33,933 nt of DNA from Williamwhitmania sp. (GTDB lineage: Bacteria; Bacteroidota; Bacteroidia; Bacteroidales; Williamwhitmaniaceae), in NCBI GenBank assembly GCA_035529935.1, contig DATKVT010000031.1, forward strand, positions 1 to 33,933, in the 5' to 3' direction. The translations under genes were made by a program, and so were the position numbers. Positions 6,014 through 31,794 of this stretch are shown here, in pieces (within the stretch, counting starts at the first letter, position 1; each line of letters starts with the position of its first letter). The notes below the pieces were generated by a model. It ran no database searches. It was not told the origin of the DNA and saw only the letters and a list, made by a program, of their open reading frames with translations.

Positions 6014-9000
6014 ATGAACAAAAAAATTTCCATTACGGTATTGCTTCTTTTGGCATCACTTGTTTCGTGGGGGCAAATCTCTCCTCTCGGAATTCCATTC
6101 CATAGGCAATATACTCCTGAGGAATACAAGGGATCGGAAACAAATTGGTCAGTTGCCTCTGACGATTTGGGCATGATGTATTTTGGAAACGAGGGAATGA
6201 TTCTTGAATATGATGGGCACGAGTGGCGCGATATTCCAGTTAAGGATGACAATATTCAATCCCTTTGCAATGGTTCCGGTAACATCTACTTTGGTGGATC
6301 TCGATCGTTTGGGGTAATCAAAACCGATGCGCTAGGCAATCACTATGCATTCTACCTCTCCGAAAGGCTTGGTAGTAATGTGGAGGTAAACAACATTTGG
6401 AAAACCTACTGTATCGATAAAAAAATATTCTTTTGCTCTTTAAAGCGGATCTTCATTTACGATCCCAAGGAAGATGTAATTCAGATGGTGGAGTTACCCA
6501 AGAATAGCTTTTTAGCCTTTGTGGTAAACAACCAGCTTGTAATTGGCAATTGGGAGCAAGGCCTTTTAAAGCTCACCGGCAATAAGGTTGAGCTGGCTGA
6601 AGGTGGAGGCTATTTCAAGAAGAAGGATATTTTTAGTGTTTTGCCGTACGATGCCAATCGCTGGCTCATTGCCACCAACCTTGATGGCCTCTACCTCTAT
6701 TATCCCAATGGTGGGAAAGCCGAGGTGTTTGAACCAACGCAAGAAGCTAAGCAGACAAACAAATTTCTGAAGGATAACAACTTTTATACCGGTGCTATTG
6801 TCAACGATTCTACCTATGCTTTAGGAACGTTTGGTGGCACTGTAATAATGAACAAGCAAGGCCGGATTGTTGCGCTGATCAATAAAAAGTATGGCCTTTC
6901 GAGTGAGGAAACCACAGGTTTAATGGTTCGTCCATCATCGCCACAATCCATGCAGCTTTGGCTCACCCTCGTGCTAGGAATTGCAAATGTAGACTATCCT
7001 TCAGTAACGGCTCACTTTGCTGATGAGTCGGGACTTTTTGGTAACGTGCAAACCCTTAAGCGCTACAATGGGATACTCTATGTTGGAACTATCCGAGGGT
7101 TATATACTCTGCGATTTAATGCTTTTGGATTACCTGAATTTGTTCAGATTAAGGAGGTAGAGGGGCAGGTTAATAACTTGTTAGTTGTTAAGGAGAAGAA
7201 CAAAGATGTATTGCTAGTTGGTTCAAACCTTTACCTATACAAAATAGCCAATGGCAAGATAGACCGATTCAACTCCGTTGATGCGCTCACCTACAAGTTT
7301 GTTAAGCCAAAGTTCTCCAATAAAGTAGTGTATGTGGTGAGCGAGCGTAGCCTTAAGCGACTAGTCCTTGTTAATGGAGAGTGGCATCTTGATAACAATT
7401 GGCATAGTATTAACGAGTATTGCGAGGATATTCAGGATTTACCCAATGGGAAGTTGCTTTGCAAAACCAAGCATGGACTTTTTATTGTCGATTCTAGCGG
7501 TGTTTATTCTCCAATTATTGATAGAGAGGGGCTTAAGGCTCGGATTGTGGAGTTGTCCAATCAGGTGTATGTGATTAATGACACCTCTGCCCAAATCCTT
7601 ACTAAGGATAAATTGCTTCCTACACGAAGCTTGGATTCGGCATTCCAAATGCCTTCGCAAAAAATACAGGAAGTTTTCCAACTTAAGAAGGACTTGCTCC
7701 TCTTAGTCCTGAAGGAGCAATACGATGTTAGCTATGCCCTAGCAAGGAGAACCTCTACAGGCTGGGGTTTAGACATGCATGTTACTGGACGAGTTCCCTC
7801 GATGTCTAATCCAGAGGTTATTCTTGATAACGATTCCACCACCATTTGGATAGGAGGATCAAAAGGGCTATTCTCTATTGATCTCAGAAGTGTGGGAAAT
7901 ATGCCCAAGAGCAAAATGTCCACCCTGATTCGATCAATATCGCTGAATGAAGATTCGTTGCTTTTTAATGGCAGCTACGCCCCTGCAATTAATACGGTTT
8001 TGGATATTAATACCAATGGGCACTTTGTAATAAATAAATCAATATCGTTTAAATACAACTATTTGAGTTTTGTTGTAGCTCTGCCTTTTTACGAAGATCA
8101 ACAAAAAACTCAGTATAGCTATAAATTGGACGGCTTTGATAGGGGTTGGTCGCGTTGGACGAATGATAACAAAAAGAGCTATCCCAACCTTTCTGAGGGT
8201 ACCTACAAGTTCTGGGTAAAGGCTCGAAATGTTTATGGGGAGGAATCGATACCAGCATGTGTTGAATTTGAAATTCTCCCACCGTGGTACAGAACTATTA
8301 TCGCCTTCGTCCTTTACTTTATTTTTGCAATTCTCTTTGTTTATGCAGTGGTGCGGTTTTACACTCGCAAGCTGGAAGAAGATAAAAAACGGTTGGAGCA
8401 AACGGTAAAGGAGCGTACGGCAGAGGTGGTTAGGCAAAAGGATGAGATTTTGGATAAGAATCTTGAAATTGAAAAAAAGAACAAGGATATTACCGACTCC
8501 ATTCGGTATGCTAAGCGAATCCAAACTGCGGTTTTACCAAACAAGCAGTCGTCCTCCAATCTGGAGTATTTCATCTACTTTAAACCTCGCGATATTGTTA
8601 GCGGGGACTTTTACTGGGTTTACCATTTCGATGCTCAGAACGTGGTGATTGCTGCTGCGGTGGATTGTACCGGTCATGGTGTTCCGGGAGCATTCATGAG
8701 CATGTTGGGAGTTGCCTTTCTAAATGAGATTGCTTCGGACCCTAGTATCAAGCATACTGACGAGATTCTTAACGTTTTGAGAGATTTTGTTATTCGGTCG
8801 CTTAACCAAACAGGTAAGGAGGGTGAATCGAAGGATGGCATGGACATTGCTATTGCTCGAATAGATCTGAAAACCGGAATGTTAGAGTTTTCAGGGGCAA
8901 ACAATCCGCTTTTTTTAATTCGTAGTGGTGAGCTCATTGAGTATCCGCCCGATAAAATGCCCATTGGTATTCACATTAAGGATGAAGAACCATTCACGCG

Positions 9001-9265
9001 ACATGAAATTGCGCTTCAGGAAGGCGATCAAATGTATCTCTTTTCCGATGGTTTTTCTGATCAGTTTGGAGGACCAGATATACGCAAGTATATGAAGCGG
9101 CAGCTGAAGGAATACTTGCTAAAAATATGTAATCTGCCCATGGATCAGCAGCAACGAATGATTGAAGAAGAATCTATTCGTTGGATGGGCGATTTGGAGC
9201 AAATTGACGATCAGCTCATCATTGGGCTACGATATACAAATACTAAAGAGAAAAGGAAGCTGTAG
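6014..9265 (+). CDS. Transmembrane sensor with periplasmic propeller, Y_Y_Y domain and SpoIIE-type PP2C phosphatase
   Basis: A 1083-residue protein built like a Bacteroidota hybrid sensor, but with a phosphatase as output. A signal peptide (MNKKISITVLLLLASLVSWG, then Q) leads into a long region of propeller-like sensor repeats (about 40-690, e.g. YFGNEGMILEYDGHEW and LIATNLDGLYLYYPNG). A Y_Y_Y domain follows (about 695-757, YSYKLDGFDRGWSRW), then one membrane helix (about 761-783) and a coiled coil (785-835). The C-terminal PPM/SpoIIE domain (about 850-1080) has the expected metal-binding acidic motifs: GDFYW (D865), DCTGHGVPGAFMSM (D884), SDGFSDQFGG (D1012) and IDDQLIIG (D1065, D1066). It would dephosphorylate a serine or threonine on a partner, typically an anti-anti-sigma-like protein, in response to a periplasmic signal. 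No partner gene is adjacent. It is flanked by terminators, so it is probably monocistronic. Confidence 0.9.
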   Translation: MNKKISITVLLLLASLVSWGQISPLGIPFHRQYTPEEYKGSETNWSVASDDLGMMYFGNEGMILEYDGHEWRDIPVKDDNIQSLCNGSGNIYFGGSRSFGVIKTDALGNHYAFYLSERLGSNVEVNNIWKTYCIDKKIFFCSLKRIFIYDPKEDVIQMVELPKNSFLAFVVNNQLVIGNWEQGLLKLTGNKVELAEGGGYFKKKDIFSVLPYDANRWLIATNLDGLYLYYPNGGKAEVFEPTQEAKQTNKFLKDNNFYTGAIVNDSTYALGTFGGTVIMNKQGRIVALINKKYGLSSEETTGLMVRPSSPQSMQLWLTLVLGIANVDYPSVTAHFADESGLFGNVQTLKRYNGILYVGTIRGLYTLRFNAFGLPEFVQIKEVEGQVNNLLVVKEKNKDVLLVGSNLYLYKIANGKIDRFNSVDALTYKFVKPKFSNKVVYVVSERSLKRLVLVNGEWHLDNNWHSINEYCEDIQDLPNGKLLCKTKHGLFIVDSSGVYSPIIDREGLKARIVELSNQVYVINDTSAQILTKDKLLPTRSLDSAFQMPSQKIQEVFQLKKDLLLLVLKEQYDVSYALARRTSTGWGLDMHVTGRVPSMSNPEVILDNDSTTIWIGGSKGLFSIDLRSVGNMPKSKMSTLIRSISLNEDSLLFNGSYAPAINTVLDINTNGHFVINKSISFKYNYLSFVVALPFYEDQQKTQYSYKLDGFDRGWSRWTNDNKKSYPNLSEGTYKFWVKARNVYGEESIPACVEFEILPPWYRTIIAFVLYFIFAILFVYAVVRFYTRKLEEDKKRLEQTVKERTAEVVRQKDEILDKNLEIEKKNKDITDSIRYAKRIQTAVLPNKQSSSNLEYFIYFKPRDIVSGDFYWVYHFDAQNVVIAAAVDCTGHGVPGAFMSMLGVAFLNEIASDPSIKHTDEILNVLRDFVIRSLNQTGKEGESKDGMDIAIARIDLKTGMLEFSGANNPLFLIRSGELIEYPPDKMPIGIHIKDEEPFTRHEIALQEGDQMYLFSDGFSDQFGGPDIRKYMKRQLKEYLLKICNLPMDQQQRMIEEESIRWMGDLEQIDDQLIIGLRYTNTKEKRKL

Positions 9266-9457: not shown

Positions 9458-9946
9458 ATGAATCGATTTATTGTTACTGCAGTATTGGTTGTTTCCCTGT
9501 TCTCGATAAATAGGGCAAACGCGCAGCAAGTCATCGCTGCAAGTGGTGGTGAGGCGAAAAGTTCGAACTTCAGCGTCACCTATACGGTTGGTGAGGTAGC
9601 TACCCAAACCTTATCGGGGGGTACCTTTATTGTTAATCAAGGCTTTCAGCAGCCGTCCTATGTTGTCACCTCCATTGAGGATAACTTCCTCCTGATGGAT
9701 CTAAAAATTTTCCCAAATCCAACTACGGGTATTCTCCATGCTGAGATTTCACAATCGCCTGAAGCTAGGCTGTTAGTTCGACTGTATGATATTAAAGGGC
9801 TGCTAATTTTGGAAAAGGAGGAGTCACTCTTTGATGGACAAGGAAGATTTGAGCTTAACCTATCGAACCTTTCCCCGGGAATCTTTATCCTAAAGATTTT
9901 CTCGAAAGACAAACCGTTGAAGGTTATGCAAATATTGAAGAATTAG
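9458..9946 (+). CDS. Small secreted protein with type IX secretion (type A) sorting domain
   Basis: A 162-residue protein. A signal peptide (about 1-22, ending RANAQ) sends it through Sec. A short N-terminal module follows (IAASGGEAKSSNFSVTYTVG, then TLSGGTFIVNQGFQQP), a form often found just before sorting domains in Bacteroidota. Residues about 80-162 are a T9SS type A C-terminal sorting domain: LKIFPNPTTGIL, VRLYDIKGLL, LNLSNLSPGIFILKI and a final KVMQILKN. Such proteins cross the outer membrane by T9SS, usually with loss of the sorting domain and attachment to the surface. The gene is 81 bases upstream of the four S74 paralogues with no terminator between, so it may lead that operon. Its mature part is very short, so it may be a small surface factor rather than an enzyme. 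Confidence 0.88.
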   Translation: MNRFIVTAVLVVSLFSINRANAQQVIAASGGEAKSSNFSVTYTVGEVATQTLSGGTFIVNQGFQQPSYVVTSIEDNFLLMDLKIFPNPTTGILHAEISQSPEARLLVRLYDIKGLLILEKEESLFDGQGRFELNLSNLSPGIFILKIFSKDKPLKVMQILKN

Positions 9947-10027: not shown

Positions 10028-12568
10028 ATGAAATCAATATTTACCCAAGGCAGAGCGCTGTTAGTGTTTCTTTTACTATTTGTTGAGATTGCCCAAGCCC
10101 AATCGCCCCAAGGCATGGCCTACCAAGCCGTGGTTAGGAATGCTTCTGGTGCCCCAGTCACCAGCACACCGGTAGGTATGCGGTTCAGCATTCTGCTGGG
10201 AAGTTCTACTGGAAATGCTCTTTATGTTGAAACCCAAAGTGCCACCACCAACGGGCAAGGTGTGGTAGCTCTCACCATTGGAGAGGGTAGCCCGGTAACG
10301 GGAACTTTTGCAGCTATCGACTGGGCTAACGGACCCTACTTTCTCAAGGTGGAGGTTGACCCCAATAATCAGGGGACTTATCCATTAAGCAACGTTAGCC
10401 AGCTGCAGTCGGTTCCCTATGCGCTTCATGCGGTGCAATCGGAGAACCTGCTACCCATGGGGGCATTAACCGGCCAGGTACTCAAGTGGAATGGTGCCCA
10501 GTGGAGCCCCGCTGCCGATAGCGTGAATAGCAGCTGGAACTTGTTGAATGGAAATATTTATGCCAATACCGCCGGAAATATAGGAGTTGGTGTAACCACA
10601 CCTTCCGGTAAGCTGGAGGTGATGGGTACCAACAGCGATCCCAACATCCCGCTCTTTGAGGTCAAAGACTTAAACGGCAATCCGGTTTTTTCTGTTTATC
10701 CCGATGGGGTTGAGGTTACGGTAGATATGACTACTGCTGTTCGTCCGGCTAAAGGTGGTTTTGCCGTGAGCGGACGAAACTCAACCCGAGGGACCACCAC
10801 CGACATTATGCGCGTTACTCCCGATTCTACGACCGTATATATTAATAATTCAGTTGGGCGACCAGCCAAAGGCGGTTTTGCAGTAAGCGGCCGCAACTCA
10901 ACCCGGGCTGGAGTTACGAGTAACATTTTAACCATTAATGCTGATAGCACAAGAATCTATACGGCAGACCCGGTTGCAGGCTTTGGTGTTGGACAGGCTA
11001 GTGGATCAATATCAGATAATTATCTGCGTTTGTTACCGTCAAATTATTTTATTGGACATCAAAGTGGTTTGAATACAACGGGTTTGTACAATACCTTTTT
11101 CGGATATACCACTGGCTTTGCCAATACTACAGGAGAGAGTAATATTTTTATTGGGAATGCCTCCGGGTATAGTAATGTAAGCGGAAGTAACAATGTGTTT
11201 TTAGGCAACCAAAGCGGTTACTCCAACATTGCTGGAAACTTCAATACATTTCTTGGTTTTCAGTCGGGGTATAGTAACAATGGCTCATTTAACTCCTTTG
11301 TAGGTTATCAAGCAGGACAAGCTAATACCACTGGAACCAACAACACCTTCCTTGGCTACTTTGCGGGTAAGGCAAATACAACCGGAAGTAGCAACGTTTT
11401 TTTTGGAAATCAAAGTGGGGTAAGTAACACCACCGGAGCATCTAATATTTTTATTGGTGAAAGTTCTGGCTTCTCAAATATTTCTGGATTCAGCAATATC
11501 TTCATTGGTAGAACTGCTGGGTATTCGGGCGTTGCATTGAAAAGCAACATTTTTATTGGTGACAGTTCAGGATATTTTTCCAACAATCAGTTTGCCACGA
11601 ACAACGTGTTTATTGGTTATGCAGCAGGAAAGAATACTCAAAGCTACAACAATATCTTCTTGGGTAACCTTGCCGGATATTCTAACTCTGGTGGGCAAAA
11701 TAATATTGCCATTGGGGATAAGGCCGGGTACAGCAATACAACCAGCCAGAATATATTCATAGGAACTGAGGCGGGGACTGACAATACCTCCGGCTATTTC
11801 AATATTATGCTGGGACGATATGCTGGACATGTTAATACCACTGGTTATCAGCAAATATTAATAGGAGGTAGCGCTGGAGGTTCATTAACCACGGGGCATG
11901 AGAATGTAATGGTTGGTAATAACGCTGGAACAATTAATTCCACTGGTGTTGGTAATGTCTTTGTTGGAACATCGGCAGGCTGGAGTAATACCGGTTCCTA
12001 CAATGTAATACTAGGTTACAAGGTTGGCTATGGGGCATTTAGTACCGTTTCAAACAGGCTGATTATTGATGGAGGTGCGGTAACAACTCCATTAATATGG
12101 GGAGAGTTTGATAATAGAAAAGTGGCAATTAATTCTACTAGTCCTGGTTCTTATACTTTATATGTAAACGGCACAGCATATGCAACCTCGTGGAGTACAC
12201 CAAGCGATAGAAGGCTTAAGAAAGACATTGTTCCAATTCCAGATGCGTTAAACAGAGTAATGCAACTTCAGGGGGTTAATTTTCATTGGAAAGACAAGGC
12301 GCAAGGTGATGCATTACAGATGGGATTTATAGCACAAGACGCAGAAAAGATTATCCCAGAAGTAGTAACCTACTCTAAAGATAATGACTCCTACTCTTTA
12401 CAGTATTCTCCAATTACTGCTTTGCTAGTGGAGGCAGTGAAGCAGCAGCAATCCATTATTGAGAAGCAGAACCAAATCCAGCAGGCGCAGCAGAGTCAAA
12501 TTGATGACCTCAAGACTCAGGTTGCAAAATTAAATGAGCTAGTAAAGCAGCTGTTAAACTCTAAATAG
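10028..12568 (+). CDS. S74 tail-fibre-type surface repeat protein, paralogue 1
   Basis: An 846-residue secreted protein. Order of parts: signal peptide (about 1-24, cut before QSPQG); conserved N-terminal domain (25-138, GMAYQAVVRN to SVPYALHA); linker module with TGQVLKWNGAQWSPAADS and KLEVMGTNSDPNIPLFEVKD; two copies of a 39-residue module starting RPAKGGFAVSGRNSTR; about 20 glycine-rich repeats of about 16 residues (core F-[IL]-G-x-x-[AS]-G-x-x-N); and a C-terminal S74 intramolecular chaperone beginning SDRRLKKDI (S726, D727) with MGFIAQDAEKIIPEVV and a coiled coil ending QLLNSK. In phage tailspikes this chaperone drives trimer folding and then cuts itself off at the Ser. The repeats probably form a trimeric beta-roll shaft; this is inferred. 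No T9SS signal or lipobox is seen. The next gene follows after 8 bases. Confidence 0.88.
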   Translation: MKSIFTQGRALLVFLLLFVEIAQAQSPQGMAYQAVVRNASGAPVTSTPVGMRFSILLGSSTGNALYVETQSATTNGQGVVALTIGEGSPVTGTFAAIDWANGPYFLKVEVDPNNQGTYPLSNVSQLQSVPYALHAVQSENLLPMGALTGQVLKWNGAQWSPAADSVNSSWNLLNGNIYANTAGNIGVGVTTPSGKLEVMGTNSDPNIPLFEVKDLNGNPVFSVYPDGVEVTVDMTTAVRPAKGGFAVSGRNSTRGTTTDIMRVTPDSTTVYINNSVGRPAKGGFAVSGRNSTRAGVTSNILTINADSTRIYTADPVAGFGVGQASGSISDNYLRLLPSNYFIGHQSGLNTTGLYNTFFGYTTGFANTTGESNIFIGNASGYSNVSGSNNVFLGNQSGYSNIAGNFNTFLGFQSGYSNNGSFNSFVGYQAGQANTTGTNNTFLGYFAGKANTTGSSNVFFGNQSGVSNTTGASNIFIGESSGFSNISGFSNIFIGRTAGYSGVALKSNIFIGDSSGYFSNNQFATNNVFIGYAAGKNTQSYNNIFLGNLAGYSNSGGQNNIAIGDKAGYSNTTSQNIFIGTEAGTDNTSGYFNIMLGRYAGHVNTTGYQQILIGGSAGGSLTTGHENVMVGNNAGTINSTGVGNVFVGTSAGWSNTGSYNVILGYKVGYGAFSTVSNRLIIDGGAVTTPLIWGEFDNRKVAINSTSPGSYTLYVNGTAYATSWSTPSDRRLKKDIVPIPDALNRVMQLQGVNFHWKDKAQGDALQMGFIAQDAEKIIPEVVTYSKDNDSYSLQYSPITALLVEAVKQQQSIIEKQNQIQQAQQSQIDDLKTQVAKLNELVKQLLNSK
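10742..10975 (+). repeat. Tandem 117-bp (39-residue) module duplication in paralogue 1
   Basis: Two adjacent 117-base units start at 10742 and 10859. Both begin RPAKGGFAVSGRNSTR; the first continues GTTTDIMRVTPDSTTVYI and the second AGVTSNILTINADSTRIYT. The same pair occurs in all three downstream paralogues at 13207-13440, 15567-15800 and 17846-18079, so the duplication predates the expansion of the gene family. Confidence 0.85.
11041..12031 (+). repeat. Coding repeat array, about 20 units of about 48 bp
   Basis: Tandem in-frame units encode a core such as NTFLGYFAGKANTTGSSN. I count 20 F/I/L-G-x-x-x-G cores, from FIGHQSG to ILGYKVG. Units are usually 16 residues with a few insertions (e.g. 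at the 11530-11600 units). Positions facing the core (F, G, G, N) are conserved while the others vary. Confidence 0.85.
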
Positions 12569-12576
12569 ACATTCTA

Positions 12577-14850
12577 ATGAGACATTTATCTATAGGTATT
12601 GCCTTGGTTTTAAGTGCGCTTATTTATACTAGCATTTTTGGTCAATCGCCTGAGGGCATGGCCTACCAAGCAGTGGTTAGAAATGGCACTGGAACTCCAG
12701 TTACTAGCACTCCGGTAGGTTTGCGATTCAGCATCCTTCAGGGAGGTGCCACTGGAACGGCTGTATATGTTGAAACCCAAGGTGCTACCACCAACGAGCA
12801 AGGTGTGGTAGCCCTCACCATTGGAGACGGGAGCCCCGTATTGGGAACTTTTACAGCCATCGACTGGGCTAACGGGCCTTACTTTCTCAAGGTGGAGGTT
12901 GACCCCAATAGTCAAGGTACCTATCCCCTAAGCAACGTTAGCCAGCTGCAGTCGGTTCCCTATGCACTTTATGCAAAATCTTCATCCTCTTCCTACTGGT
13001 CCATCAATCAAAGTGGAGGCATCTATCCAAGTAATGGTGGCAATGTGGGTATTGGAACAGCAACGCCCAATGGCATGCTGGAGGTAAAGGGAACCGATAG
13101 CGATCCCACCGTTCCGCTCTTTGAGGTGAAGGATATCAACGGAAATCCGGTTTTTGTTGTATATCCCGATGGAGTAGAGGTAACAGTGGATATGGCAGCT
13201 ACAGGCCGTCCGGCCAAAGGTGGTTTTGCCGTGAGCGGACGAAACTCAACCCGAGGGACCACCACCGATATTATGCGCGTTACTCCCGATTCTACGACCG
13301 TATATATTAATAATTCAGTTGGGCGACCAGCCAAAGGCGGTTTTGCCGTAAGCGGCAGAAACTCAACCCGGGCTGGAGTTACGAGTAACATTTTAACCAT
13401 TAATGCTGATAGCACAAGAATATATACTGGCGATCCCAATAAGGGGTTTGGAGTTGGAGAGATCGGAACCGGATTATCAAATAGTTACCTCAAGCTGCTG
13501 CCCGAAAATTACTTTATTGGTCATCAGAGTGGGCAATATACAACTGGATTGTTCAATACTTTTTTTGGCTATAATGCAGGATTGTCGAATACCACCGGTT
13601 CTAGCAATATTTTCATCGGCTATGAGGTGGGAAGAACTAATACGTCGGGTTCTTATAACACATTTTTGGGTTACCAAGCTGGATATACAAATAATGCAAG
13701 CTATAACTCATTTATCGGCTATCAAGCGGGACGATCTAATACCTCTGGTCAGTATAACTCTTTTATGGGATACAAAACTGGTTTGGCAAATACGACAGGT
13801 TCAAGCAATGTGTATATTGGTGATAGCGTTGGCGTATCAAGTACTTCGGGCAATAAGAATGTGTTTCTGGGGAACCTCGCAGGAAGAAATAATGTTTCAG
13901 GATACAATAATGTGTACATTGGTTATCAAGCCGGATTTTTGGGCAACTATGGAAGCCAGAATATTTGCATAGGAAATTACTCTGGGTACTCAAATACTAC
14001 TGGGCAGAATCTTTTTATTGGAGAGTATGCCGGACAACAAAATACTTCTGGATCTCGAAATTCGTGTGTGGGATTCTTTTCAGGGCAAAATAATGTCACT
14101 GGTGGCCAAAATTCCTATTTTGGTCAGTTTGCAGGTATGGATAATCTAAATAGTTACAATACTTTCATTGGATACTGGGCTGGAGGCAATAATGTAAATG
14201 GAACAATGAATGCCTATCTTGGCTATAGGAGTGGGCAGGGCAGTACCGGTTCTAATAATGTTTTCTTGGGCTATATGGCTGGCGAGAATTGCTCCGGAAC
14301 AGGTAATGTTCTCGTTGGCTACATGGCAGGATATGGCAGTAGTAAGTCCGATGCACTCTATATTGCTAATTCCAACACTACTACCCCTCTAATTGGTGGT
14401 GATTTTTCTAATAAGCGTGTTGGAATAAATAGAATGCCAACTACCTATACCCTTGAGGTTGGTGGGACGATTTGGGCCAATGGATCAGCCATTACTGCCG
14501 GGTTAACAACCTGGTCCGACCGTCGCTTTAAAACCAATATTGTTCCCATTCCAGATGCACTCAATATTGTTATGAAGCTTAATGGTGTTCGCTTCGATTG
14601 GAATAGAGGTGCATTCCCTAATCGTAATTTTACCGAAGGGAAGCAGGTTGGTCTTATTGCTCAAGATGTTGAAACGGTATTGCCAGAGGTTGTTTCAACC
14701 GATGGAGAGGGATACAAGTCTGTTGCCTACGACAAGGTTTCGGCTGTATTAGTTGAGGCGATTAAGCAACAGCAAAATCAAATTGAAGAACTTAAGGCTC
14801 AGGTTGCAAAATTAAACGAGCAGGTAAAGCAGCTATTAAACTCTAAATAG
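12577..14850 (+). CDS. S74 tail-fibre-type surface repeat protein, paralogue 2
   Basis: A 757-residue paralogue with the same plan as its upstream neighbour: signal peptide (to about residue 23, then QSPEG), the GMAYQAVVRN N-terminal domain, the doubled RPAKGGFAVSGRNSTR module, about 17 repeats (13507-14340) and an S74 chaperone starting SDRRFKTNI (S647) with VGLIAQDVETVLPEVV, then a coiled coil ending KQLLNSK. Its linker differs from paralogues 1 and 3: it reads SYWSINQSGGIYPSNG then VGIGTATPNGMLEVKG, as in paralogue 4. The doubled module is almost identical at DNA level to that of paralogue 1. Eight bases separate it from both neighbours, and both junctions read TAGACATTCT then A/C and ATG, so the genes are co-transcribed and arose by tandem duplication. 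Confidence 0.88.
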   Translation: MRHLSIGIALVLSALIYTSIFGQSPEGMAYQAVVRNGTGTPVTSTPVGLRFSILQGGATGTAVYVETQGATTNEQGVVALTIGDGSPVLGTFTAIDWANGPYFLKVEVDPNSQGTYPLSNVSQLQSVPYALYAKSSSSSYWSINQSGGIYPSNGGNVGIGTATPNGMLEVKGTDSDPTVPLFEVKDINGNPVFVVYPDGVEVTVDMAATGRPAKGGFAVSGRNSTRGTTTDIMRVTPDSTTVYINNSVGRPAKGGFAVSGRNSTRAGVTSNILTINADSTRIYTGDPNKGFGVGEIGTGLSNSYLKLLPENYFIGHQSGQYTTGLFNTFFGYNAGLSNTTGSSNIFIGYEVGRTNTSGSYNTFLGYQAGYTNNASYNSFIGYQAGRSNTSGQYNSFMGYKTGLANTTGSSNVYIGDSVGVSSTSGNKNVFLGNLAGRNNVSGYNNVYIGYQAGFLGNYGSQNICIGNYSGYSNTTGQNLFIGEYAGQQNTSGSRNSCVGFFSGQNNVTGGQNSYFGQFAGMDNLNSYNTFIGYWAGGNNVNGTMNAYLGYRSGQGSTGSNNVFLGYMAGENCSGTGNVLVGYMAGYGSSKSDALYIANSNTTTPLIGGDFSNKRVGINRMPTTYTLEVGGTIWANGSAITAGLTTWSDRRFKTNIVPIPDALNIVMKLNGVRFDWNRGAFPNRNFTEGKQVGLIAQDVETVLPEVVSTDGEGYKSVAYDKVSAVLVEAIKQQQNQIEELKAQVAKLNEQVKQLLNSK
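13207..13440 (+). repeat. Tandem 117-bp module duplication in paralogue 2
   Basis: Two 117-base units start at 13207 and 13324 and encode the RPAKGGFAVSGRNSTR module twice. The first roughly 215 bases differ from the same region of paralogue 1 (from 10742) at only about five sites, far fewer than elsewhere in the two genes. Confidence 0.85.
13507..14340 (+). repeat. Coding repeat array, about 17 units of about 48 bp
   Basis: In-frame glycine-rich units with cores from FIGHQSG to LVGYMAG; I count 17. Several consecutive units share FIGYQAG or FLGYQAG cores, consistent with local duplication. Confidence 0.8.
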
Positions 14851-14858
14851 ACATTCTC

Positions 14859-17207
14859 ATGAAACGTTTTTCAATAGGCTTAACGTTGGTTTTAAGTGTG
14901 CTTATTTTTAAGTGTGCTTTTGGCCAATCGCCACAGGGCATGGCATACCAAGCAGTGGTAAGGAATGCTTCTGGTGCCCCAGTCACCAGCACTCCGGTAG
15001 GTATGCGATTCAGCATCCTTCAGGGAGGTGCCACTGGAACTGCTCTATATGTTGAAACCCAAAGTGCAACCACCAACGAGCAAGGTGTGGTAACTCTCAC
15101 CATTGGAGAGGGTATCCCGGTATCGGGAACTTTTGCCGCCATTGACTGGGCAAACGGACCTTACTTTCTCAAGGTGGAGGTTGACCCCAATAATCAGGGA
15201 ACTTATCCCCTAAGCAACGTTGGCCAGCTGCAGTCGGTTCCCTTTGCGCTTCATGCAGCGCAGTCGGAAAACCTGCCACCCATGGGTGCCATAACTGGCC
15301 AGGTGCTCAAGTGGAATGGCGCACAGTGGAGCCCGGCTGCCGATAGCATAAATACAAGTTGGAGCGTGCTAAATGGTAGCATATATGCCAATACTACTGG
15401 GAATGTAGGAGTTGGTGTAACCACGCCTGCCAGTAAACTGGAGGTGATGGGAACCAATAGCGATCCAAACATTCCGCTCTTTGAGGTTAAAGACTTAAAC
15501 GGCAATCCGGTTTTTTCTGTATACCCCGATGGAGTTGAGGTTACGGTGGATATGACTACCACTGGCCGTCCGGCTAAAGGTGGCTTTGCCGTTAGCGGAC
15601 GAAACTCAACTCGAGGGACCACTACCGACATTATGCGTGTAACCCCCGATTCAACAACGGTTTACATTAACAATACGCTTGGCCGACCCGCAAAGGGTGG
15701 TTTTGCAGTAAGCGGCAGAAACTCAACAAGGGCGGGAGTCACGAGCAATATTTTAATGATAAATGCTGATAGCACAAGAATTTACACCGCCGACCCCAAT
15801 AAGGGATTTGGAGTTGGACTTACCAGCGGAACCACTAATAGCTACTTAAAGCTTACCAGCAATAACTATTTTATTGGACAGGAGGCTGGCCTTTATAATT
15901 CCGGTGGAACCTATAACTCATTTATGGGGTACCAAGCTGGAAAGTTTAATGGTAGTGGCTACCAGAATATCTTTATTGGTTACCAGTCGGGTATGCAAAA
16001 TACCTCCGGCTATTCCAATATTTTCATTGGAAACACAACAGGCTATAGCAATCTTGATGGGAATAGAAATCTCTTTATTGGCAACCAAGCTGGTTATAGC
16101 AACGTTTCTGGTTTTGGTAATACCTTCATTGGCCACAATGCTGGGTACACCAATACAGGCGGATACCGAAACATGTTTATGGGCTTTAATACCGGCTATT
16201 CAAATATTTCTGGTAACGACAACACTTTTTTAGGTGATGCATCTGGCTATGCAAATACTACTGGATCTTCAAACACATTTATTGGACAAGGTGCCGGTAA
16301 TCAAAATAGCACTGGTGGAGCAAACTTAATGTTAGGAATGTCGGCTGGTCAGAATAGCACTACTGGTTGGCAAAATGTTTTATTAGGAACTTATGCTGGT
16401 TTTGGGTTAGTAGATAACTGCAGCAGCAACGTAATGGTTGGTTACTATAGCGGGGCGGCATTAACTAGCGGTAGCAGTAATATTTTTGTTGGACCCTCCA
16501 GCGGTAATGGAATAACCACCGGCAACTATAATGTCTGCATTGGACAGCAAACAGGGCAAGCCGCCACAACCGCAAGTTCAAACGTGATTATTGGACATCA
16601 GGCTGGAATGAAGACAACAGGTGGCGGTAATGTTATGATTGGCTACAATGCTGGTATGAATGAGACAGGAACAAACTTGTTGTACATTGATAATTCGAAT
16701 ACAGCATCCCCTCTTATATATGGAGACTTTTCCAACAATCGCCTTGTTATAAATGGGAATAGTTCCAACAATATTAATAATAGAGCATTCTTTGTGAATG
16801 GCTCTGCTGGGGGAACCGGCGCTTGGTGGAATGACAGCGACAAGCGTAAAAAGAAGAATATCCAAACAATTCCTAACGCCTTGGAGATAATCCTTAAAAT
16901 GCGAGGCGTAAAGTTTGAGTGGATTGATACCACAAACCACGAAACGGGACCGCAGGTTGGATTTATTGCTCAAGAAGTTGAGCCTATTCTTCCAGAGGTA
17001 GTTAGTAACAAAAACGACACTTACTCAATGGAGTATGCCCCTATAACTGCTGTTCTAGTGGAGGCCGTAAAAGCCCAGCAGCAGGAGATTGATGCCTTGA
17101 AGAAGGAGAATGAACAGATGAAATCATTAACCAAAGAGAACGAAAATCTTAAGGCAAGGCTAGACAACCTTGAGAAAAAAATGGAAAAATTACTTAACTC
17201 AAAATAA
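14859..17207 (+). CDS. S74 tail-fibre-type surface repeat protein, paralogue 3
   Basis: A 782-residue paralogue. Signal peptide (to about residue 23, then QSPQG), GMAYQAVVRN domain, the TGQVLKWNGAQWSPAADS linker shared with paralogue 1, the doubled RPAKGGFAVSGRNSTR module, about 16 repeats (15861-16670) and an S74 chaperone. The cleavage-site region reads NDSDKRKKKNI (S660), a Lys-rich variant of the usual SDxRLKxNI, with VGFIAQEVEPILPEVV after it. The C-terminal coiled coil is longer than in its neighbours (ALKKENEQMKSLTKENENL) and ends KLLNSK. A Cys sits in the signal peptide (FKCAFG) but the context is not a lipobox. The stop overlaps the first possible ATG of the next gene. Confidence 0.87.
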   Translation: MKRFSIGLTLVLSVLIFKCAFGQSPQGMAYQAVVRNASGAPVTSTPVGMRFSILQGGATGTALYVETQSATTNEQGVVTLTIGEGIPVSGTFAAIDWANGPYFLKVEVDPNNQGTYPLSNVGQLQSVPFALHAAQSENLPPMGAITGQVLKWNGAQWSPAADSINTSWSVLNGSIYANTTGNVGVGVTTPASKLEVMGTNSDPNIPLFEVKDLNGNPVFSVYPDGVEVTVDMTTTGRPAKGGFAVSGRNSTRGTTTDIMRVTPDSTTVYINNTLGRPAKGGFAVSGRNSTRAGVTSNILMINADSTRIYTADPNKGFGVGLTSGTTNSYLKLTSNNYFIGQEAGLYNSGGTYNSFMGYQAGKFNGSGYQNIFIGYQSGMQNTSGYSNIFIGNTTGYSNLDGNRNLFIGNQAGYSNVSGFGNTFIGHNAGYTNTGGYRNMFMGFNTGYSNISGNDNTFLGDASGYANTTGSSNTFIGQGAGNQNSTGGANLMLGMSAGQNSTTGWQNVLLGTYAGFGLVDNCSSNVMVGYYSGAALTSGSSNIFVGPSSGNGITTGNYNVCIGQQTGQAATTASSNVIIGHQAGMKTTGGGNVMIGYNAGMNETGTNLLYIDNSNTASPLIYGDFSNNRLVINGNSSNNINNRAFFVNGSAGGTGAWWNDSDKRKKKNIQTIPNALEIILKMRGVKFEWIDTTNHETGPQVGFIAQEVEPILPEVVSNKNDTYSMEYAPITAVLVEAVKAQQQEIDALKKENEQMKSLTKENENLKARLDNLEKKMEKLLNSK
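15567..15800 (+). repeat. Tandem 117-bp module duplication in paralogue 3
   Basis: Units start at 15567 and 15684 and encode the same 39-residue module pair. Protein sequence is nearly identical to the other copies, but third-position differences are many compared with paralogues 1 and 2, so this copy has not been homogenised recently. Confidence 0.8.
15861..16670 (+). repeat. Coding repeat array, about 16 units of about 48 bp
   Basis: In-frame glycine-rich units from FIGQEAG to MIGYNAG; I count 16. Later units use M, L or I at the first core position more often than F. Confidence 0.8.
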
Positions 17208-17212
17208 TGCTT

Positions 17213-19126
17213 ATGAGACGATATTTACCTTTAACATTGATAGCGTTGTTGATAACCCTCTTTATGAATGAGGTTTATGCACAAGCGCCGGAAGGATTCA
17301 ACTACCAATCGGTGGTGCGCGATGCAGCAGGAAATCCAGTGGCTCAAAAGAGCGTAACGTTTAGATTTTCGGTAATTCAGGGCTTAGAAACTAATAATCC
17401 GATTTATGTGGAAACCTCGGATGCAGAGACAAACCAAAACGGATTAGTTTCGTTGGTTTTAGGAGCGGGAACACCTACCGTAGGAACTTTTTCCTCTATA
17501 CCTTGGCAAACTGGACCTTTTTATCTTAAAACTGAGGTTGATTTTAAAGATGGTGCAGGATTTGTTGGTGGGGAAACTTCGCAAATGCAGTCGGTTCCTT
17601 ATGCACTTTATGCAAAATCTTCCTCTTCATCCTATTGGTCCATCAATCAAGGTGGTAGTATTTATCCAAGCAATGGCGGCAACGTAGGTATAGGCACGTC
17701 AACGCCCAATGGCATGCTGGAGGTTAAAGGAACAGACAGCGACCCTACTGTTCCGCTCTTTGAGGTGAAGGATATCAACGGGAATCCAGTATTTGCTGTA
17801 TATCCTGATGGGGTAGAGGTAACAGTGGATATGGCTGCGACAGGCCGTCCGGCAAAGGGTGGATTTGCGGTTAGCGGTAGAAACTCTACCCGAGGTACCA
17901 CAACCGATATTATGCGTGTAACCCCCGATTCTACAACCGTGTATATTGGCAACGTAGTTGGACGACCAGCCAAAGGTGGATTTGCCGTAAGTGGTCGAAA
18001 TTCTACACGCGCAGGATTAACAAGTAACATCTTAACCATTTCCCCCGACAGCACAAGAATCTACACTGCCGATCCAACCAAGGGTTTTGGTATCGGGCAA
18101 ACGGCCGGAGTTGCTGCAACCAACTACCTACGATTGACACCAAATAACTATTTTATTGGTCAACAGACGGGGTATTCAATAAACAAGGGACAGTACAATG
18201 TCTTTTTGGGGTATCAGGCAGGCTATAGCACCACTGGATACCATGACGATATGGATCCTACTGATGGAGATAACAATATTTTTATTGGCTATCAGGCGGG
18301 ATTTGCCAATACGGTTGGGGAACAGAATCTATACATTGGTGCTTTCAGTGGAAAGAATAATACCAACGGTTCGGTAAACACGTTTGTGGGATCTTTGACA
18401 GGACAGAATAATACTGGTTACGGAAATACCTTCCTTGGAGCTATGGCCGGCGGATCAAATCAGTCAAATAGCGGCTACAGAAATACCTTTATTGGCTGTT
18501 ATTCTGGTTGGGCCAACACCTCTGGTAGCGATAACGTGTTTATTGGCCGGGAATCGGGAACCTCCAATACAACTGGTAACTACAACGTTTACATAGGCCA
18601 TTTGGCCGGTCTCTCCAACTCCGCAGGAACTGGAAATGTTTTTATTGGAAGGGCTGCTGGCCAAAACGAAACTGGTTCAAATAAGCTCTACATAGCCAAC
18701 AACTCCACTCAAGCCCTTATGCAAGGCGATTTTAGCGCAAAAACGTTAACCATTAATGGCGCAGCTCTTGCTGTCTCTTGGAGTGTTTTAAGTGATATGC
18801 GATTAAAAACCAATATCGTTACCATTCCTAATGCTTTGAGTAAGGTGTTGAATCTTAGAGGAGTAAACTTTGTTTGGAAGGATTCCACCATGAAGAGAAC
18901 CCAAATGGGATTTATTGCACAGGAGGCTGAAAAGGTGATTCCAGAGGTGGTGAATTATTCGAAGGAAGATGACAAATATACAATGCAATACGCTCCAGTT
19001 ACGGCTCTGCTTGTGGAGGCCATGAAGGAGCAGCAGAAGACCATTGACCAGCTCAAAAAAGATAACGAGGAGCTGCGCAAACAGGTCAAAGAGATTCTCG
19101 ATTTGCTCAAAGCTACCAAAAAGTAG
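17213..19126 (+). CDS. S74 tail-fibre-type surface repeat protein, paralogue 4
   Basis: A 637-residue paralogue from the ATG at 17213 (MRRYLPLTL, like the M-R/K-R starts of its neighbours). An ATG at 17207 overlapping the previous stop would add two residues. Signal peptide to about residue 24 (VYAQAPEG). The N-terminal domain is clearly diverged (GFNYQSVVRDAAGNPVAQKS), but the linker (SYWSINQGGSIYPSNG), the doubled RPAKGGFAVSGRNSTR module and the S74 chaperone (SDMRLKTNI, S527; MGFIAQEAEKVIPEVV) match the family, the linker being that of paralogue 2. Only about 10 repeats are present, so the predicted shaft is half as long as in paralogue 1. The coiled-coil tail ends LLKATKK instead of LLNSK. 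A strong terminator follows, closing the operon. Confidence 0.87.
   Translation: MRRYLPLTLIALLITLFMNEVYAQAPEGFNYQSVVRDAAGNPVAQKSVTFRFSVIQGLETNNPIYVETSDAETNQNGLVSLVLGAGTPTVGTFSSIPWQTGPFYLKTEVDFKDGAGFVGGETSQMQSVPYALYAKSSSSSYWSINQGGSIYPSNGGNVGIGTSTPNGMLEVKGTDSDPTVPLFEVKDINGNPVFAVYPDGVEVTVDMAATGRPAKGGFAVSGRNSTRGTTTDIMRVTPDSTTVYIGNVVGRPAKGGFAVSGRNSTRAGLTSNILTISPDSTRIYTADPTKGFGIGQTAGVAATNYLRLTPNNYFIGQQTGYSINKGQYNVFLGYQAGYSTTGYHDDMDPTDGDNNIFIGYQAGFANTVGEQNLYIGAFSGKNNTNGSVNTFVGSLTGQNNTGYGNTFLGAMAGGSNQSNSGYRNTFIGCYSGWANTSGSDNVFIGRESGTSNTTGNYNVYIGHLAGLSNSAGTGNVFIGRAAGQNETGSNKLYIANNSTQALMQGDFSAKTLTINGAALAVSWSVLSDMRLKTNIVTIPNALSKVLNLRGVNFVWKDSTMKRTQMGFIAQEAEKVIPEVVNYSKEDDKYTMQYAPVTALLVEAMKEQQKTIDQLKKDNEELRKQVKEILDLLKATKK
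17846..18079 (+). repeat. Tandem 117-bp module duplication in paralogue 4
   Basis: Units start at 17846 and 17963. The module pair is retained although the N-terminal domain of this paralogue has diverged, suggesting module exchange independent of the rest of the gene. Confidence 0.8.
18144..18677 (+). repeat. Coding repeat array, about 10 units of about 48 bp
   Basis: In-frame glycine-rich units from FIGQQTG to FIGRAAG; I count 10, the shortest array of the four. One unit carries an acidic insertion (DDMDPTDGDN) near 18243-18272. Confidence 0.8.
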
Positions 19127-19180: not shown

Positions 19181-19232
19181 AGAATCAGTTAAAGGATTGT
19201 TCGCTCTTGCTTTCTAATTGCAGGTGGTTGCT

Positions 19233-19240
19233 TACTTTTG
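19233..19240 (+). promoter_or_regulatory. Bacteroidota -7 box for the pentapeptide-repeat gene
   Basis: TACTTTTG is an exact TAnnTTTG match ending 31 bases before the ATG at 19272. The only upstream TTG near the -33 position (19207-19209) is 23 bases away, longer than ideal. The box lies downstream of the alternative TTG start at 19218, which supports the ATG. Confidence 0.55.
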
Positions 19241-19271
19241 TATAATTAATTTGGGCGCAAATTTTTCTACT

Positions 19272-19841
19272 ATGGCAAATGCTCTTTTTGAAGACCAAAA
19301 ATTCGAGAATTTAAAATTACTACAAGACATTCAATGTTTTGAGTTCAGTGGATGTCTCTTTCGAAGCTGTGACTTCACTGGCCTAAACCTTTCTGGGAGT
19401 GAGTTTGTTGATTGTCAATTCGAGTTTTGTAACCTCAGCATGGTGCAGGTGCAGGAAACAATTTTTACAAATGCTGTTTTCAGGGGTTGTAAGCTCATGG
19501 GCATGGATTTTAGTAAGGTTCGAAAGTTCTTGCTTTCTATGTCGTTTGAAGAATGCAATTTGAGCTATGCATTCTTTTTTGGACTTAACCTTAAAGGAGC
19601 TAAATTCATAAACTGCCTGCTGGAGGAGACCAACTTCTCAGAGGCAACATTGGTGGAGGCCAATTTTAGCGGTAGCAATTTGGTGGGTGCAATTTTTGAC
19701 AGAACTAATCTTGAACGAGCCGATTTTACCTCTGCTTCTGGCTATTCTATTAATCCAGCAATTAATCGTATTCGGAAGGCAAAGTTTTCGCTACCAGAGG
19801 TGGTTGGACTTCTGCATAGTTACGATATCGAGGTATTCTAA
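19272..19841 (+). CDS. Pentapeptide-repeat protein
   Basis: A 189-residue cytoplasmic protein made almost entirely of pentapeptide repeats of the form A/C-[D/N/x]-[L/F]-x-x. Examples are CLFRSCDFTGLNLSGSEF, NFSEATLVEANFSGSNL and ANFSGSNLVGAIFDRTNL. These fold as a right-handed quadrilateral beta-helix. The C-terminus (SGYSINPAINRIRKAKFSL, then LLHSYDIEVF) forms a non-repeat cap like that of Qnr/McbG-type proteins, which mimic DNA and protect gyrase. That role is possible but unproved here. It has a -7 box of its own and no close partner genes. The frame extends upstream to a TTG at 19218, rejected because it precedes the promoter box. Confidence 0.88.
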   Translation: MANALFEDQKFENLKLLQDIQCFEFSGCLFRSCDFTGLNLSGSEFVDCQFEFCNLSMVQVQETIFTNAVFRGCKLMGMDFSKVRKFLLSMSFEECNLSYAFFFGLNLKGAKFINCLLEETNFSEATLVEANFSGSNLVGAIFDRTNLERADFTSASGYSINPAINRIRKAKFSLPEVVGLLHSYDIEVF

Positions 19842-30927: not shown

Positions 30928-31794
30928 CTATTTTTCGATGGCGATTACCAAGTATTTTGATTTTTGCCAGAAGGCTTTTGAATCTTTAATAACCAATTCG
31001 GTAACCTTGTTTTGTGTTCCAACAATTTCGTAAGAATCTGCAGGATGAGGGGTTACAAGAGTAATTTTCCTTGCTGTTAATGGAATGGAGTTTAGCGTTC
31101 TCATGTCCACTGGGGTGAAGCTGTTGTCGCTGGGTGCTGAGGCAAGTTTAATGGACTTACCAAGGCCAAGAAAACCACCTTCTTTAACCACAATCCCTTT
31201 GGCTACAAGCTCCTTTTCAGTGCCCATGATGAAGTAAGCCTGATTCATCTCGTTAGTTTTCGTGGCAACAACTCCCGCCAACTTAGCGTTTTCTTGCTTT
31301 ACGGTGGTGAGTGTATCGTTGAGCGACTGGATAGAGAAGTTCAGCTTAGTAAGGTTATCCTTCAGCTGAGAGATGGTAGAATCCTTTTCTACAAGAAGTA
31401 GATTGGTCTTTTCTATCATTTTCTGCAGCTCTTCAATCTTGATGTTCGACTCTTTCAGCTGCTTCCTTAACCAGGAAATGGATCTCTTGTTCTTATTCAT
31501 CAGGTCGTTAATAACCTTGATGTCGTCGTTGATACGAGCACGTGAATCTTTGCTGAGTTCTCCACCCTTTGCTGTTTCTTTTGAAATGGTGGATTCTTTC
31601 ATTTTAATCTCGCCTAAACTTGACTCAATTTGATTTAGCGACTCAAAAAACTGGTTGATAACCGAGTCTTTAGAGGCGGCATCTTTAGCCATTTGGGCCT
31701 TTTCGGTTTGTAGTTGCGCAATTTGTGCTTTTTCTTTCTGGTTGCAGGCAGTAAGCGCTGCGGCTATTGCAATTCCTAGCAGTAATTTCTTCAT
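30928..31794 (-). CDS. Coiled-coil lipoprotein of unknown function
   Basis: A 288-residue protein with a lipoprotein signal (MKKLLLGIAIAAALTACNQK; lipobox LTAC, lipidated Cys17). Residues about 22-190 form a long coiled coil rich in Lys, Glu and Gln. The C-terminal part (about 190-288) looks globular: YFIMGTEKELVAKGIVV, GGFLGLGKSIKL, then ITLVTPHPADSYEIVG and SKYLVIAIEK. It would be anchored in the inner or outer membrane facing the periplasm, with a rod-like spacer. I do not recognise the family, although similar lipoproteins are common in Bacteroidota. It lies upstream of the kinase on the same strand, with 97 bases between. A near-match -7 box (TATATTTA, 31845-31852 minus) lies upstream. 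Confidence 0.82.
   Translation of the reverse strand: MKKLLLGIAIAAALTACNQKEKAQIAQLQTEKAQMAKDAASKDSVINQFFESLNQIESSLGEIKMKESTISKETAKGGELSKDSRARINDDIKVINDLMNKNKRSISWLRKQLKESNIKIEELQKMIEKTNLLLVEKDSTISQLKDNLTKLNFSIQSLNDTLTTVKQENAKLAGVVATKTNEMNQAYFIMGTEKELVAKGIVVKEGGFLGLGKSIKLASAPSDNSFTPVDMRTLNSIPLTARKITLVTPHPADSYEIVGTQNKVTELVIKDSKAFWQKSKYLVIAIEK

Follow-up and report, generated by a model that had tools for sequence, protein, structure and literature searches.

Among the described systems, those that come closest to the locus reported here are the MAT fibres of Bdellovibrio bacteriovorus, the S74 fibres and spikes of phages, the collagen-like adhesin Lcl of Legionella, and the cargo proteins of the T9SS. 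MAT proteins have a signal peptide, a beta-rich N domain of about 110-130 residues, a long repeat shaft, S74 or other trimer tips (C-type-lectin-like and TNF-like in MAT), and several paralogues per genome, a plan that we also find here. For the MAT fibres, surface location and S74 cleavage have been reported, and the surface element that binds the MAT N domain is stated as unidentified (PMC10769870). Phage S74 proteins such as T5 pb1 and the K1F endosialidase combine glycine-rich repeats with a C-terminal S74 domain carrying SDxxxK, as do the proteins described below. In Legionella an amphipathic helix serves as the anchor of Lcl, whose homologues in the FCB group have been listed (PMC11162425). 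The proteins that we describe resemble the first two systems in their N domain and in their distal parts, respectively, and their probable link to the T9SS is through a neighbouring gene. T9SS cargo is known to carry its sorting signal, the CTD, in cis.

The window, i.e. the whole stretch of 33,933 nucleotides of Williamwhitmania sp. DNA that was analysed, contains four fibre genes on the + strand, which by the ORF list and Pfam each encode an NT and an S74 domain: fibre gene 1 (10028..12568, 846 aa), fibre gene 2 (12577..14850, 757 aa), fibre gene 3 (14859..17207, 782 aa), and fibre gene 4 (17207..19126, 639 aa). The original prediction of four tightly spaced tandem genes with a common architecture was borne out. 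The open reading frames are separated by 8, 8, and -1 bases, and all four proteins begin with a signal peptide, which is Sec-type as judged by inspection, followed by a conserved N-terminal domain of about 112 residues that we named NT (10097..10432, 12643..12975, 14925..15257, and 17279..17614 in fibres 1 to 4, respectively). Next is a 39-residue module that in all four is doubled in exact register, with a spacing of 39 (10742..10975, 13207..13440, 15567..15800, and 17846..18079); within each protein 18 of the 39 residues are identical between both copies and, from gene to gene, 70-76 of the 78 residues of the doubled module are identical. The shaft that follows is made of glycine-rich repeats with a period of 16-17 aa, about 20 in fibre 1 (11048..12055), 17 in fibre 2 (13513..14346), 16 in fibre 3 (15870..16673), and 10 in fibre 4 (18152..18676).

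At the C-terminus all four fibres have a Peptidase_S74 domain (12203..12370, 14515..14694, 16836..17003, and 18791..18952) that matched PF13884 with E values of 7e-19, 2e-17, 3e-17, and 1e-17, and scores of 63-68 bits against a curated cut-off of 22 bits, and their ends consist of S74 plus a coiled coil. The catalytic SDxxxK, with the Lys five residues on from the Ser, is intact in each, as SDRRLK, SDRRFK, SDKRKK, and SDMRLK, respectively. The cleavage positions proposed earlier, S726, S647, and S660, were found as such in fibres 1 to 3, whereas the serine of fibre 4 is S529, or S527 with the second ATG taken as the start codon. The genome (4.04 Mb in 233 contigs) has no S74 genes besides these four, and SDxxxK is kept in 35 of the 38 complete proteins with NT and S74 that were counted. 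That the four genes encode trimeric S74 fibres is plausible from their sequence, because the catalytic motif is intact and because relatives sharing NT have collagen, YadA-head, or Lcl_C shafts or tips. The whole-fibre monomer model had a pLDDT of 52, with the repeat region, that of fibre 4, modelled as regularly spaced short strands of a beta-solenoid-like kind, and this low-confidence monomer had no match in the PDB at E ≤ 0.001. A YadA-type trimeric autotransporter (Vc) was considered and rejected, as none of the four fibres had a C-terminal barrel by Pfam. Scanning for promoters and terminators yielded nothing above chance level.

The NT domain is not peculiar to this genome. NT proteins were present in 89 of the 149 Bacteroidia genomes sampled (~60%), with more than 10 in some genomes, and the tails of 75 NT proteins that were examined were collagen in 32, S74 in 28, Lcl_C in 9, YadA_head in 4, FISUMP in 2, and BclA_C in 1. 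Collagen, S74, Lcl_C, YadA_head, and BclA_C are parts known from trimeric fibres. Thus, as in MAT, a conserved N domain is followed by a fibre shaft and by varied trimer tips. There is likewise a resemblance to Legionella Lcl, in that a collagen shaft is common among NT proteins and the trimeric Lcl_C/DUF1566 tip is present in some of them; unlike Lcl, the window fibres end in S74 and not in a collagen/Lcl tip, and it is not NT by which Lcl is anchored. When the MAT_N model NF053851 was compared to the 75 NT proteins, 70 matched at E<1e-3, and the model matched 82 of the 149 class genomes and none of the 14 control genomes. The window fibres aligned to about positions 2-80 of the 162 in the model, scoring 30-39 bits (cut-off 60) with E values between 4e-7 and 7e-10. 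Scores stayed below the curated cut-off of 60 bits in all but one of the 149 class genomes. Judged by these sequence matches, NT is a remote homologue of the Bdellovibrio MAT N-domain, and since the matches lie almost always below the curated cut-off, we call the fibres MAT-like and do not file them as MAT. What sets them apart from MAT is that the window host is a T9SS Bacteroidota and no known predator, and that a gene for a T9SS-sorted partner lies beside the fibre genes. The NT domain of fibre 4 was modelled confidently as an Ig-like beta sandwich (AlphaFold2 pLDDT 86), but its fold neighbours were generic only (at best E 3e-3 with Foldseek and Z 7.4 with VIA-align), and NT had no sequence relative in the PDB. 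A single contig scan with poor patterns named five Bacteroidetes/Bacteroidia MAG loci as relatives, two of them with sequence gaps, and a viral scan gave one match, to S74 only.

The partner is encoded by a small gene, which we call H (9458..9946, +, 162 aa), 81 bases 5' of fibre gene 1. From Pfam, NCBIfam, and the family alignment A5, H consists of a Sec signal peptide, a head of about 45 residues (residues 23-66, 9524-9655) with the motifs SVTYTVGEV and, further on, NQGFQQP, and a type A CTD (residues 84-162) that matched PF18962 with an E of 2e-10 at 41 bits (cut-off 27) and TIGR04183 at 34.6 bits (cut-off 23). By domain content H is therefore standard type A T9SS cargo. PorA, a larger CTD protein, differs from H. 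In a genome of the same genus, G001, the plan of the locus is the same with three fibre genes instead of four, the order being a 1081-aa gene, H, and the fibre genes. The 1081-aa gene holds the same place before H as does, in the window, the gene for a Y_Y_Y + SpoIIE-phosphatase sensor protein of 1083 aa (6014..9265, +), which lies directly upstream of the module. The sensor is a possible regulator of the fibre operon, and its membership is uncertain.

Whether the neighbourhood of H and NT is a general one was examined by searching the ORFs of fetched loci with a profile built from the NT alignment A2, in a sample of 55 Bacteroidia genomes with one NT locus each. H adjoined an NT gene in 35 of these genomes, directly upstream in 27 and only directly downstream in the other 8, and the gaps were mostly <85 bp. 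H was directly upstream of 30 of 62 NT genes compared to 8 of the 514 non-NT genes of these loci (Fisher p 1e-25). The reverse test agreed, since 16 of 20 H genes, chosen regardless of NT, adjoined an NT gene. In the remaining 20 of the 55 sampled loci NT had no adjacent H, which means that either an H elsewhere serves these fibres or H is not obligatory. One locus, L162 (G134:C67), has three consecutive H-NT pairs with differing fibre tails on one contig. These data suggest, at the level of gene order, that H and an NT fibre gene form a two-gene surface-fibre module that is widespread across much of Bacteroidia. A published description of the pairing was not found in the literature searched, outside which subscription papers mostly lay; Flavobacterium pep25/lbp26 had a promising title, but the abstract and a term search gave no pointer to H and NT. 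The suggested display of fibres on the cell surface by H and NT is thus apparently new to that literature. The original prediction, right as far as it went, had missed H, the homology of NT to MAT, the mosaic of the paralogues that is described below, and this class-wide module.

The sorting signals are distributed between the two partners in a complementary way. No T9SS CTD was found in any of 92 complete NT ORFs by our own profile or in any of 75 NT proteins by the curated Pfam and NCBIfam models, and with Pfam and NCBIfam neither a type A nor a type B CTD was found in the four window fibres. In S74 proteins without NT, on the other hand, 15 of 39 had a T9SS CTD in cis (p 1e-5 versus those with NT and S74), and all 7 CTDs that were tested scored above the TIGR04183 cut-off. 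The S74 genes without NT at L066, L068, L070, L071, L080, L082, L090, L091, and L103 encode proteins of 329-459 aa, and in proteins of this type the type A CTD is located after S74, and they make up a second S74 class in Bacteroidota. Self-cleavage at SDxxxK would sever a fibre of this second class from its own CTD, and hence either cleavage would come after export or the fibre would be released. The head of H was followed by a type A CTD in 38 of 39 cases, and in three other proteins (L153, L155, and L158) an H-type head was followed by a type B CHU_C CTD. Because the head is fused to either type of CTD, what appears to be kept is the sorting signal as such. The H-type head of L155 occurs with SprB repeats and that of L116 with PKD domains, and the H-type heads of L155, L158, L153, and L116 are all beside or near NT genes. 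The window genome has a T9SS, as SprA (TIGR04189) was found with 2746 bits at G000:C164. In the order sample, NT was present in 123 of 189 genomes with SprA and in none of 10 without it (p 4e-5; the genomes lacking SprA represent few families). One genome without SprA in the class sample had NT, namely G096, which is possibly an incomplete assembly.

The four paralogues are related to each other in a patchwork manner. In the NT region, DNA identity is 90% between genes 1 and 3 and 52-56% between gene 4 and each of the others, whereas in the linker after NT the pairs 1-3 and 2-4 are at 82% and the remaining pairs at ~52%. DNA identity in the doubled module reaches up to 94% between genes 1 and 2, and the intergenic DNA upstream of gene 2 is almost identical to that upstream of gene 3. 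The repeats (~50%) and S74 (53-62%) show no such preference in any gene pair. From this patchwork of identities it appears that the cell-proximal half has been homogenised segment-wise by recombination and that the distal half has diversified.

The explanation of these findings that we favour, probable though by no means secure, is that H and the four fibre genes form a five-gene surface-fibre operon in which H supplies the export and/or the anchoring of the fibres in trans. The fibre protein would be exported by Sec, would trimerise via its C-terminal S74 chaperone, and would then undergo self-cleavage at the SDxxxK serine, after which NT, the linker, the 39-residue modules, and the repeat shaft would remain. 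The fibres themselves lack an outer-membrane sorting signal; H has one, and its CTD would be recognised by the SprA/PorV translocon. The head of H may dock on the conserved NT domain, by which H would convey the fibre through the outer membrane and/or keep it at the cell surface, its variable shaft and tip pointing outwards. With a common homogenised base and differing shaft lengths and distal halves, the four fibres would make up a small repertoire of adhesive fibres. The window fibres differ from T9SS cargo in having no CTD, and the signal would work in trans. That H binds the CTD-less trimer in the periplasm via NT, goes with it through the T9SS translocon, and then anchors it is a tentative proposal, which we consider possible but short of probable; movement of a folded trimer in trans through this translocon is not documented in the literature that was searched.

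That passage is not needed if H anchors only, i.e. if the fibre surfaces by another route and the T9SS delivers H separately, so that the fibre docks by NT on the head of H once A-LPS has taken the place of the CTD. The linkage of H and NT fits this equally well, and in P. gingivalis PorU is known to remove type A CTDs and to link the cargo to A-LPS (PMC4804311, PMC7712824). The absence of NT from the ten SprA-lacking genomes of the order sample is compatible with both forms. However, no other export route for the fibre is visible, as it lacks a barrel and its signal peptide is a plain one, and we think it rather unlikely that H has no part in export. Counter to both, the linkage may come from co-regulation only, H and the fibre proteins being surface proteins whose genes are expressed together and whose products never touch. 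Operon neighbours may indeed have no interaction, and the 20 of 55 NT loci that lack an adjacent H point the same way. Yet many families keep the pairing, with fibre tails of diverse kinds and with the two genes in either order, and it is the head that is fused to a type A or a type B CTD and the NT proteins that are always CTD-less, which makes mere co-regulation improbable. Least of all do we believe that the locus is a prophage remnant or a phage-derived tail-fibre cassette, for although the repeats and S74 of fibre 4 (residues ~313-630) resemble the tail fibres of numerous phages, none of the best phage matches listed begins before residue ~286 or lies over NT or the first 39-residue module, the operon plan is the same in G001, and NT genes occur in 89 of the 149 class genomes. 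The window fibres are also unlike phage S74 fibres in having a Sec signal peptide, a bacterial NT domain, 39-residue modules, and a chromosomal operon. An intact prophage is refuted by these matches to shaft and S74 only together with the flanking genes, which are metabolic (CoA ligase, flavodoxin, arginine decarboxylase, 2-oxoacid oxidoreductase, gmk, and nadD) with no phage structural or lysis genes alongside, and the fibre genes are chromosomal, as had been foreseen. Among the flanking genes tested there was no PHROG match except for a generic pentapeptide-repeat protein. A pentapeptide-repeat gene lies at 19218-19841, just 3' of fibre 4, and is distantly Qnr-like, far below the cut-offs. 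The same contig carries, at 30928-31794 (-), a gene that matches, above the NCBIfam cut-off, the model for collagen-binding glycoprotein adhesins of the Cbp1 family (NF052320, 216 bits).

In the reading in which H serves the fibres in trans, the way in which NT fibres, which have no CTD and whose tails resemble tail-fibre, collagen-like, or unknown families, reach the surface and stay there would be accounted for by a conserved T9SS-sorted partner. Such a partner would extend the T9SS rule of a signal in cis. It would also provide a concrete model for the element that grips MAT fibres at their N domain (PMC10769870). If export in trans is true, H and its fibre gene would constitute a two-gene 'fibre display' module of class-wide occurrence, with NT as an adaptor that shares ancestry with the MAT fibres of the predatory Bdellovibrio.
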